A stretch of 64,000 nt of DNA, from assembly GCF_028618595.1 (NCBI RefSeq), contig NZ_JAQITE010000002.1, positions 3,560 to 67,559 of the forward strand, in the 5' to 3' direction. Positions within the stretch are counted from its first letter, which is position 1, and each line of letters opens with the position of its first letter. The position numbers were made by a program, and so were the translations under genes. This DNA is from Bartonella sp. AU18XJBT (GTDB taxonomy: Bacteria; Pseudomonadota; Alphaproteobacteria; Rhizobiales; Rhizobiaceae). The notes under the pieces were generated by a model. That model saw only the letters and a list, made by a program, of their open reading frames with translations, was not told where the DNA came from and did not search any database. Below, piece by piece: positions 14,314-34,093 of the stretch.

Positions 14314-16140
14314 TTAACTTGAAATTGAAGCACGTGTTTTTTCAAAACGTTTACGTTCATTAGGATCAAGATAGAGTTTGCGGAGACGAATATTTTTAGG
14401 GGTTACCTCCACAAGTTCATCATCTTGTATCCACGATAAGGCACGTTCTAGTGTCATTTTAATGGGGGGCGTTAGCTTAACGGCTTCATCTTTTCCGGAA
14501 GCACGCATATTGGTGAGTTTTTTTCCTTTTAACACATTGACTTCTAAATCATTATCTCGTGAGTGGATGCCAATAATCATACCTTGATAGACTTTCACAC
14601 CCGCATCGATGATCATAGGTCCACGATCTTCAAGATTAAAAAGAGCATAAGCGACAGATTCACCGTTGTCATTTGAAATCATAACGCCATTAACACGACC
14701 AGAAATGTCTCCTTTATAAGGTTCATAAGCATGGAAAAGGCGATTCATAATTGCTGTACCACGTGTGTCCGTTAAAAGTTCAGATTGATAACCAATGAGT
14801 CCTCGGGTTGGTGCATAAAAAACAAGGCGGACACGATTACCTCCAGAAGGACGTAATTCCACCATTTCGCCTTTACGTTCAGACATTTTTTGTACAACAG
14901 TACCGGAATATTCTTCATCAACATCAATAACAACTTCTTCGATTGGCTCAAGAGTTATTCCATTTTCATCTTTTTGCATAACAACACGTGGACGTGAAAC
15001 ACTAAGCTCAAATCCTTCACGGCGCATATTTTCAATGAGAACTGCAAGCTGTAATTCTCCTCGTCCTGAAACGTAGAAAGAATCTTTATCGGCTGATTCT
15101 TCAATTTTAAGAGCGACATTGCCTTCTGCTTCTTTTAACAGTCGGTCACGAATGACGCGACTTGTTACTTTATCGCCTTCAGTTCCAGCAAGGGGACTAT
15201 CGTTGACGAGAAAACTCATAGTAACAGTAGGAGGATCAATTGGTTGGGCAGTAAGGGGCTCATTAACAGTAGGATCACAGAAAGTATCAGCAACGGTACC
15301 TTTTTGTAGACCTGCAATCGCAACAATATCACCAGCATTTCCTTCTTCAATAGGTTGCCGTTCCAGGCCACGAAATGCTAAAATTTTTGAAATACGCCCA
15401 GTTTCTAAAAGTTTTCCATCTTGTCCAAGAACCTTGACATTTTGATTGGGTTTTAGAGAGCCAGAATGAATCCGCCCTGTAATAATTCGTCCCAAAAACG
15501 GATCCGCTTCAAGAATAGTTCCAATCATGCGAAACGGTCCTTCTGCTACACTAGGAGAAGGGACATGCTGCGTTACAAGATCAAATAAAGGTCCTAATCC
15601 CTGATCTTTTGGTCCTTCAGGGGCTTCAGCCATCCATCCATCGCGTCCAGATCCATAAAGAATAGGAAAATCAAGCTGTTCATCGGTTGCATCAAGAGCA
15701 GCGAAAAGGTCAAAAACCTCATTAATGACTTCATCAACGCGTGCATCAGGGCGGTCAATTTTATTAATAGCAACAATAGGACGCAAGCCCACTTTCAAGG
15801 CTTTGCCAACGACAAATTTTGTTTGTGGCATTGGTCCTTCAGCAGCATCAACAAGTACAATGGCTCCATCAACCATATTTAGAATGCGCTCAACTTCTCC
15901 ACCAAAGTCGGCGTGTCCTGGTGTATCAACAATATTAATTCGAGTATCTTTCCAAACAACAGATGTCACTTTCGCTAGGATTGTAATTCCACGTTCTTTT
16001 TCAATATCGTTTGAATCCATCATACGTTCGCTTGTACGCTGATTATCACGGAAGTTTCCTGATTGCTTGAGAAGTTCGTCTACAAGCGTTGTTTTCCCAT
16101 GGTCAACGTGGGCAATGATGGCAATGTTACGCAATTGCAT
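14314..16140 (-). CDS. typA: Translational GTPase TypA/BipA
   Basis: 608 residues, EF-G-like GTPase that binds 70S and helps 50S assembly under stress and cold. Motifs: G1 AHVDHGKT (residue 10), the switch region RGITILAK, G3 [15 protein letters not shown]4 NKIDRPDA, and a C-terminal domain specific to BipA ([18 protein letters not shown]). Length matches the family. The 5' side opens into a long spacer holding integrase remnants. Confidence 0.95.
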
Positions 16141-30363: not shown

Positions 30364-31956
<1,593 letters not shown>

Positions 31957-32064
31957 AGATACAAGAGCCTAATGTCATATTGCATAAATATAAAATCTTC
32001 CGCGAACAAGAATGAGAGACTGCGCTTTTTTCTGTTTGTGATTTGGTGTAATAATCCCAAAAAG

Positions 32065-32097
32065 GAAAGAATTAGAGGTCAAAACTCTAATTCTTTC
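32065..32097 (-). terminator. Terminator of the 48-residue gene
   Basis: A perfect 13-bp inverted repeat (GAAAGAATTAGAG / CTCTAATTCTTTC) with a seven-base loop. Read on the minus strand it is followed by CCTTTTTGGG, a short T-run, about 40 bases past the stop of the small gene. It may also stop guaB from the other side. Confidence 0.72.
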
Positions 32098-32135
32098 TGT
32101 TAAGACTATATGAAATAAGTTATATAAAATTAGAA

Positions 32136-32282
32136 TTAACTTTTTGTTGTCTTCCGTCCTGTCTTTGACGCACGTTGGCGAGTGTTTGTCTGATCACTTT
32201 GGACGGATTTCTTTCCGTTGTTTGAGGGCATTGTGTTATGACGGCTTTTAGATGAAGTTGTTTTTCCATTATTATAAGTCAT
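32136..32282 (-). CDS. Small basic protein, 48 residues, unknown
   Basis: Not recognised. ATG at 32280-32282 is preceded by AAAGGAG at ideal spacing, and a strong hairpin follows the stop. The product is almost entirely S, T, N, Q, K, R and G with no hydrophobic core (ends RQRASKTGRKTTKS), giving a strongly positive, probably disordered chain, as in nucleic-acid-binding or stress-linked small proteins. It has its own promoter region and no operon partner. The three signals together make it more likely a gene than chance. Confidence 0.6.
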   Translation of the reverse strand: MTYNNGKTTSSKSRHNTMPSNNGKKSVQSDQTNTRQRASKTGRKTTKS

Positions 32283-32806
32283 TATTTTCTCCTTTTAAAT
32301 TGTCTGGCAGTTGCCATTAGAGTAAAAACGGTCATGCCAAATAGTGGTTCCAAGCATTTTCTAAAAAGTTAATTTTTTGGTGAGCGTAAGATGAACTTGT
32401 TTAACTTTATGAGAAGATTTTTTCTATTTTTTCAGAAGGATCGCCATCAAAAGATGGGAGATATTTGATTTTTTCTGTTATTCAGATAATCTTTGTAAAT
32501 TTTATTTTACGCAAAAATCAAAGAGTTTAGTTTTTTCGTAAGGCATGGCGGAGATAAGTTCTTTATGGATGGCTGCGTGTCTTTTAGTATGAGAGGTAGA
32601 AGGATAAAAAGCGAATAGCGAATGGGCAGAAGATGAAAGGAAAAATCTAGATACTCTAAATTGGATCTTATAAAAAAGTATGATCAGATCATTTTAATGT
32701 TGAATGTAAATTTTTTTATGGCTTTAAGAAGGCTTCATTGGCAAGAAGACGATAATATTATTTTTTTAGACGATTTAAAATTTTATTATTTCAATGGGAG
32801 AAATGA
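32283..32806. other. Spacer between small gene and rsmB
   Basis: AT-rich with no supported gene. It must hold the promoters of the minus-strand small gene and of rsmB, but none is clear enough to mark. Confidence 0.5.
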
Positions 32807-34093
32807 ATGCGATTAGGTGGGCGTTTGCAAGCAGCAATAGATGTTCTCAAAGAGATAGAAATAAGGCATCGCCCAGTAGGAGAAGCTTTAAAGGATTGGG
32901 GGCTTTCTCATCGCTTTGCTGGAGCAGGTGATCGCGCAGCCATTGGTACAATCGTTTATGATGTTTTAAGACGACGTTATTCTTTACAATGGCGTATAGA
33001 AAGTGATGATATCCGAGATATTGTTTTCGCTACCTTATTAGATGCTGGACAAATGACGCTGGAGCAAATTGACGGTGAGTTGGCCGAAGATCGGTTTGCG
33101 CCGCAGTTATTAGGGGCTAAACAGCGTAAATCGTGGCAAGGTCAGCAATTAGTGGATGCTCCAGATTATATTCGTGGTGATATTCCGCAATGGTGTCAAG
33201 CGCATCTGCGTCCTTTATTTGGCGATAATTGGATCATTGAAGCGGCTGCGCTAGCAACGCGTCCTTCTTTAGATTTGCGGGTAAATAGCTTAAAAGCAAC
33301 ACCAGAGAAGGTGCTGAAAGAATTAGCAAAAATTAGACTTAAATCTTTTCCATGGTTTGGGAAAGCTTTAAGAATTGCACCAATTGAAAAGTTTAATCGT
33401 CACCCTAATGTTCAAGTGGAACCAGCTTTTCAAAAAGGACACTTTGAAATACAGGATTTAGGATCTCAAATTGTTGCTCACCTTGTGGAAGCGCGAGAAA
33501 GCATGCAGGTATTAGATTATTGCGCAGGTGCTGGGGGTAAAACATTAGCTTTAGCTGCCGATATGAATAATCGTGGGCAAATTTATGCTTATGATTCAGA
33601 CAAAGCTCGTTTGGCTCCTATTTTTGATCGTCTTCGACGCGCTGGTGTTCGTAATGTACAAATACGAGCACAAAAAGAAGAATTAAAATCATTAATGGGT
33701 CAGATGGATAGAGTTCTACTGGATGCACCCTGTAGTGGGACAGGAACATGGCGTCGTCGTCCAGATGCGAAATGGCGTTTAACATTAGAGCAGGTAAAAC
33801 AACGCCAAACAGAACAGAGAGCTATTTTGAATGAAGCGATAGCTTATCTTAAGCCAAATGGGCGCCTAGTCTATATTACTTGTTCTCTTTTTGCAGATGA
33901 AAATGAGGAACAAATTGCCCATTTCCTTCAACAACATACTCATTTTTCTCCAATAGATATGCCAGCACTTTGGCAACAACATTTTAGTTTTTCTCCGGTG
34001 CAACCAGTTTTTTCAAATTATGGACTGACATTATCGCCCGCAACAACACAAACAGATGGTTTCTTTTTATCTGTGTTGCAAAAAAAACATTGA
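32807..34093 (+). CDS. rsmB: RsmB/NOP-family rRNA (cytosine-5) methyltransferase
   Basis: 428 residues. N-terminal NusB-like RNA-binding part (1-140), then a SAM-dependent methyltransferase: motif I LDYCAGAGGKTLALA, motif IV DAPCSGTGTWRRRPD and motif VI VYITCSLF, with the two catalytic cysteines in PCSG and TCS. Likely methylates C967 of 16S rRNA, though other NOP-family targets are possible. GGGAGA precedes the ATG. guaA follows 132 bases later. Confidence 0.87.
   Translation: MRLGGRLQAAIDVLKEIEIRHRPVGEALKDWGLSHRFAGAGDRAAIGTIVYDVLRRRYSLQWRIESDDIRDIVFATLLDAGQMTLEQIDGELAEDRFAPQLLGAKQRKSWQGQQLVDAPDYIRGDIPQWCQAHLRPLFGDNWIIEAAALATRPSLDLRVNSLKATPEKVLKELAKIRLKSFPWFGKALRIAPIEKFNRHPNVQVEPAFQKGHFEIQDLGSQIVAHLVEARESMQVLDYCAGAGGKTLALAADMNNRGQIYAYDSDKARLAPIFDRLRRAGVRNVQIRAQKEELKSLMGQMDRVLLDAPCSGTGTWRRRPDAKWRLTLEQVKQRQTEQRAILNEAIAYLKPNGRLVYITCSLFADENEEQIAHFLQQHTHFSPIDMPALWQQHFSFSPVQPVFSNYGLTLSPATTQTDGFFLSVLQKKH

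Follow-up and report, generated by a model that had tools for sequence, protein, structure and literature searches.

A conserved 48-codon gene between guaB and rsmB in Bartonella descends from the KGG stress proteins and is probably an EcfG target

A 48-residue reading frame between guaB and rsmB of Bartonella sp. AU18XJBT is a real, conserved Bartonella gene. Comparison of its orthologs shows it to descend, at the level of sequence, from the KGG (PF10685) family of small disordered stress proteins, and its promoter sequence indicates that it is probably switched on by the general stress regulator EcfG. The window referred to below is the whole stretch of 64,000 nucleotides that was analysed.

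The gene and its signals

The gene (32136..32282, minus strand) runs from an ATG to a TAA stop and encodes the small, basic and hydrophilic protein MTYNNGKTTSSKSRHNTMPSNNGKKSVQSDQTNTRQRASKTGRKTTKS* of 48 amino acids. It is convergent with guaB, the stop codon of which lies 179 nt away, and divergent from rsmB, the start of which lies upstream at a distance of 524 nt. An AGGAG ribosome binding site (32289..32293, minus strand) ends 6 nt before the ATG. Between the converging ends of the gene and guaB there is a predicted intrinsic terminator (32065..32097, minus strand), a hairpin of 13 pairs with a 7-nt loop that is followed by CTTTTT, and this is the only terminator-like site in 31950-32810, compared to 0.5 (sd 0.9) in shuffled sequences. 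In a count made without a shuffle control, a downstream stem of at least 8 pairs was present in 53 of the 55 orthologs described below, with at least 11 pairs in 52, and was lacking in two (L029 and L053).

These signals bear out the sequence-only reading of the window, which had described, between guaB and rsmB, a minus-strand frame with an ATG, an ideal ribosome site and 48 codons, together with a 13-bp hairpin terminator. A good ribosome site proves little by itself, since seven ATG frames of 30 to 70 codons in the window have AGGAG just upstream. The gene is more than a chance frame because it is conserved in 55 of 71 genomes, with ATG and AGGAG kept and with a pN/pS that is low only in frame.

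Conservation and coding constraint

A six-frame protein search of 71 genomes of the genus, with E values up to 1, gave a match in 56 of them. The match in one genome (G062, E of 0.5) was taken as chance, the only hit at its guaB locus covering 11 residues with an E of 6, and orthologs are therefore counted in 55 of the 71 genomes. Including this one, there were six weak extra matches in genomes of the genus (E of 0.05 to 0.5), four of which contained stop codons, and all were taken as chance.

The locus is conserved along with the frame. The end of guaB lies within 1.5 kb of the gene in all 55 orthologs, and the start of rsmB is found on the other side in 54. The spacer between the gene and rsmB reaches ∼760 to 1380 bases in L015, L020, L027, L041, and L043-L053, and measures only ∼180 bases in L054. 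Every ortholog starts with ATG, has AGGAG at most 20 nt upstream and is 46 to 50 codons long; a single one (L053) has an altered C-terminal frame. An overlapping frame of 49 amino acids (32120-32269), read in another frame, was rejected, as its start and at least 45 of its codons are kept in just 18 of the 55 genomes.

Among the 42 closest genomes, pN/pS was 0.218 in frame (codon bootstrap, 0.12 to 0.35) compared to 1.10 and 1.70 for the two frames shifted against it, and it was similar for both halves of the protein (0.23 and 0.21). Over all 54 Bartonella copies without an intact KGG motif it was 0.40, compared to 0.87 and 1.08 in the shifted frames, and pairwise values had a median of 0.30 and a 5-95% range of 0.12 to 0.76, so that the coding constraint is weaker over wider distances. 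The sequence-only reading had proposed a genuine small gene and had named a frame not conserved in near relatives as what would speak against it; the frame proved to be conserved, both by its occurrence in the genus and by its pN/pS (0.22) in the closest genomes, and the proposal stands.

A conserved upstream promoter motif

A predicted EcfG promoter, GGAAC-N16-CGTT, lies ∼70 nt upstream of the gene and ends 44 nt before the ATG (32327..32351, minus strand; GGAACCACTATTTGGCATGACCGTT), with GGAAC as the −35 box and CGTT as the −10 box. The same arrangement is reported for targets of EcfG1 of R. etli in a passage of PMC3892343, and an excerpt of PMC6599016 gives the EcfG motif of Sphingomonas as GGAAC-N17-20-GTT. 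Exactly one GGAAC-N16-CGTT is present in the 130 nt before the start codon in 55 of 55 orthologs, always with a spacer of 16 nt, and the ortholog found in another genus (G162, see below) has one as well. Across these 56 rows, all nine positions in the boxes are invariant and each of the 16 in the spacer varies; in the 55 Bartonella rows alone, 2 of the 16 spacer positions are invariant. The search pattern was preset to GGAA and CGTT, yet every row had a match, and when the 55 upstream regions were aligned freely with MAFFT, the identical nine columns came out as invariant. The exact motif is absent from the 1.5 kb after guaB in the 16 genomes that lack the gene.

The motif alone was rejected as proof of EcfG control. 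With spacers of 16 to 18 nt, the window contains 2 matches where 0.56 would be expected, and as many occurred in 11 of 100 shuffled windows. There is likewise no excess of GGAAC-N15-18-CGTT in the whole genome, with 15 and 26 matches on the two strands compared to 41 and 41 for the reversed control. As the motif is not significant by count, only its conservation counts as evidence. The second match in the window is a GGAAC-N17-CGTT at 15497-15522 on the minus strand.

The leader downstream of the promoter contains a short inverted repeat (32305..32316, minus strand; TGGCAACTGCCA), a possible mRNA hairpin near the 5′ end. In the orthologs it recurs downstream of the CGTT box, ahead of the ribosome site, as CTGGC...GCCAG and variants of it. 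Stems of 4 to 7 pairs, allowing G-U, were found in 54 of 55 leaders compared to 383 of 2750 shuffled ones, and 40 of 55 have at least 5 pairs that are Watson-Crick only. The fold of the window leader alone is unremarkable, with a z of −1.0. The repeat sits directly after the predicted transcription start, where either a hairpin at the mRNA 5′ end or an operator is possible; we infer that the stem may shield the mRNA at its 5′ end. Rfam gave just two matches, both far below their gathering scores.

The general stress regulators

The NepR model PF18557 scored over its cut-off in 69 of the 71 genomes. The two misses, G002 and G062 (the latter 85% complete), both lack the small gene, and NepR is therefore present in all 55 genomes that carry it. 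Conversely, 14 of the 16 genomes without the gene have NepR, and the stress system thus does not require it. In the genome of the window, nepR overlaps a 192-amino-acid sigma-like frame and lies opposite a 264-amino-acid PhyR-like frame; histidine kinase-like frames flank these on either side. NepR was identified by PF18557 and the other frames were named by reading; so assigned, the EcfG/NepR/PhyR set is encoded in this genome. The 1.5-Mb Bartonella genome G002 (L056), with a completeness rating of 100%, has neither a NepR match nor the small gene, and its stress response may have been lost or have diverged.

Excerpts of two studies, a B. quintana array (PMC3595295) and a B. henselae RNA-seq data set (PMC5387305), link the general stress response to the adaptation of Bartonella between arthropod vector and host. 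The word guaB is absent from both main texts, and we found no expression data for the gene in them. Among the tags of the B. quintana array, just two, both of ABC transporters, lie near the position of the gene as estimated by proportion, and excerpts of the Bartonella stress-response literature do not mention it.

KGG ancestry

Neither Pfam nor NCBIfam has a family that matches the window protein (Pfam E values up to 10), which falls below the curated PF10685 cut-off of 20.4 bits, and Pfam gave no family for three other degenerate copies either (4 of the 54 were searched as proteins, including that of the window). As these family searches were empty, the identity of the protein was reached only through its orthologs. 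The ortholog of G063 (L055), which lies beside guaB and has the same promoter, ends in FANDRQRASEAGRKGGKNS and matches the KGG stress motif PF10685 with 36 bits (E of 8.3e-9), over the same cut-off. In G162 (L122), from another genus of the same taxonomic family, the interval from guaB to rsmB encodes a 48-amino-acid protein, again preceded by this promoter; the protein ends in GNFANDRGRAAEAGRKGGKR and matches PF10685 with 25.1 bits (E of 2.2e-5).

In the alignment, TNTRQRASKTGRKTTK of the window protein falls on ANDRQRASEAGRKGGK of the G063 protein. The window protein thus has a single, degenerate KGG-type motif at its C-terminus (about residues 29-47) and ends in RKTTKS, with the KGG triplet gone and with no tandem repeats. 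The GG pair is present in none of the 54 degenerate copies, where RK is followed by TT in 39 and by NV, NM, NI, AT, TI, TV or NT in 12, the tail being changed in L040, L052, and L053. It is because of the loss of this GG that the family models miss the window protein. As reference for the residual similarity we took 10 KGG repeats that come from loci in other genera, and each sequence was scored against them with BLOSUM62, as were 100 shuffles of it. The window protein scored 28.1, its shuffles 9.1 on average (sd 4.2), and none of the 100 shuffles was as high. In 53 of the 54 degenerate copies, no more than 5 of the 100 shuffles reached the score, and the best match was at the C-terminal end in the same 53, the exception being the disrupted copy of L053.

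A six-frame search of the 71 genomes with PF10685 gave only G063 over the cut-off, and in 81 sampled genomes of the taxonomic family the model passed it in 4. G162 was the only strong match of the ortholog profiles outside Bartonella in two overlapping samples of 121 and 394 genomes of the family. Other, weak matches of profiles A1 and A2 outside Bartonella (in 4 genomes of one sample and 9 of the other) were not counted as orthologs; among them, L123 and L124 were inspected for KGG repeats.

History of the locus

A guaB tree with 72 rows places the intact KGG motif in the outgroup L122 and in L055, which branches early. The 54 degenerate copies all fall inside one clade of 57 rows (support of 100), which also contains 3 genomes without the gene, and the other 13 genomes without it form a separate clade outside (support of 99). 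The genome of the window groups with L006 and L007. The three states, intact, degenerate and absent, need 3 changes on this tree, and the economical reading would start from a KGG gene in the ancestor, with the motif lost once, on the stem of the main clade, and the gene itself lost twice. The root is uncertain because the tree was made by a quick method, the outgroup L122 has a very long branch and the base is unresolved. The 1.16-Mb genome of G162 has the same order of guaB, KGG gene and rsmB, which suggests that the locus predates Bartonella.

The encoded protein

The window protein is rich in T (9), S (8), K (7), N (6), and R (4), with one acidic residue and three glycines among its 48 residues, and has a pI of 11.6, a charge of ∼+9.6 and a GRAVY of −1.89. 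An AlphaFold2 model, built on an alignment of only 9 sequences, had a mean pLDDT of 60.3 and a pTM of 0.11, and DSSP assigned no elements to it. Such a low-confidence and element-free model fits disorder, and by these predictions the protein has the small, hydrophilic and disordered character of the KGG type. The sequence-only reading had called the protein disordered, and by prediction it looks so; in that respect, and in taking the gene as real, its interpretation holds, while neither the invariant promoter of the EcfG type nor the KGG ancestry figures in it.

Discussion

According to parts of PMC7161692, the KGG proteins YciG, YmdF, and STM14_1829 are disordered, regulated by RpoS and involved in stress resistance and motility, and excerpts of PMC9262955 also treat such proteins. 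Because the known members are disordered, RpoS-regulated and stress-related, we favour as the likely account that the gene encodes a disordered, hydrophilic stress protein of KGG descent that would be transcribed by EcfG and act as an LEA-like protectant. Its ancestor at the guaB-rsmB locus would have been a KGG (PF10685) stress protein with a single motif. Under stress, PhyR would free EcfG (RpoE in Bartonella papers) from NepR, and EcfG would then transcribe the gene from GGAAC-N16-CGTT, giving a putative monocistronic mRNA of ∼260 nt that carries a hairpin near its 5′ end and stops at the intrinsic terminator. The protein would accumulate under stress, for which the phase in the arthropod vector is a plausible case, and could serve as a soluble hydrophilin- or LEA-like protectant that shields macromolecules and has no catalytic activity.

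It is also conceivable, although we regard it as doubtful, that the EcfG-driven KGG protein was repurposed once in the main clade, losing its signature on the stem while purifying selection was kept, and took on a lineage-specific role such as vector survival or the protection of nucleic acids or ribosomes. If true, this would be an example of cryptic, motif-less KGG descendants that are revealed solely by their locus and promoter.

The sequence-only reading had suggested a nucleic-acid binder from the composition. On this view the protein would, after the loss of KGG, have become a basic peptide that attaches under stress to DNA or RNA, such as the nucleoid or rRNA, through its K/R-rich disordered chain, which we consider unlikely. 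Its high pI and net charge, with eleven K and R residues to a single acidic one, make nucleic acid binding possible. However, the two orthologs with an intact KGG motif are already basic, with charges of ∼+6.6 and +7.5 and a pI of ∼11.1 each, so the basic charge is not a new trait, and the window protein has no family match of any kind and no known nucleic-acid-binding domain in Pfam or NCBIfam.

A decaying gene, in which a KGG stress protein is losing its function in Bartonella and the conserved promoter is a relic, seems to us very improbable. The motif is lost in 54 of the 55 copies, the gene is missing from 16 of the 71 genomes, the C-terminal frame of L053 is changed and pN/pS across all 54 copies is 0.40, as decay would have it, but the 42-genome clade within the motif-less group has a pN/pS of 0.22 with both halves alike, the length stays at 46 to 50 codons in every ortholog and the promoter boxes are invariant. 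Just as improbable is a functional RNA, either an EcfG-induced small RNA with an incidental short frame or a dual-function RNA, for which the recurrent leader stem, the short terminator-bounded unit and the R. etli noncoding RNA ReC64, preceded by an EcfG1 motif in a passage of PMC3892343, could be cited, but against which stand the synonymous bias of substitutions in this one frame, the ATG and AGGAG retained in all 55 orthologs and the lack of any meaningful Rfam score.

The disordered EcfG-induced protectant that we prefer gives a specific and testable identity, that of a probable direct EcfG target in Bartonella, to a small gene missed by family models. It also points to a route to such genes, in which the locus and its promoter are tracked to early-branching relatives with the motif intact. 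The KGG motif itself is called functionally uncharacterised in a passage of PMC7161692, and its loss here, with selection nevertheless kept, raises the question of what the motif is for. Titles in the literature on Bartonella and KGG were all off topic, and none on the Bartonella general stress response describes the gene; nor does it figure in any title among the matches listed for Bartonella small proteins and proteogenomics or for RpoE, ECF sigma factors and transcriptomes. Judged by the titles on these Bartonella topics, the gene is undescribed so far.

Comparison with known systems

Like the hydrophilins and LEA-like protectants, the window protein is very hydrophilic (GRAVY of −1.89) and gives an unstructured, low-confidence model, with glycine at 3 of 48 positions; unlike them, it is strongly basic and has only 48 residues. 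The B. subtilis protein GsiB is a KGG-motif stress protein.

With the EcfG (RpoE2/ECF15) general stress regulon of the Alphaproteobacteria, the gene shares the promoter motif given for R. etli EcfG1 targets in part of PMC3892343, and NepR as well as sigma-like and PhyR-like frames are present in its genome, the regulation in Bartonella being a prediction.

The gene is also close to the KGG stress proteins, among them YciG and YmdF of E. coli, SEN1538 and STM14_1829 of Salmonella and PA2146 of P. aeruginosa, which are likewise small, hydrophilic and predicted to be disordered. The motif is intact at the same locus in G063 and G162, whereas the window copy is degenerate and falls below detection. 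Both the window gene and these proteins are probably under a general stress sigma factor, which for the window gene would be of the EcfG type and not of the RpoS type.
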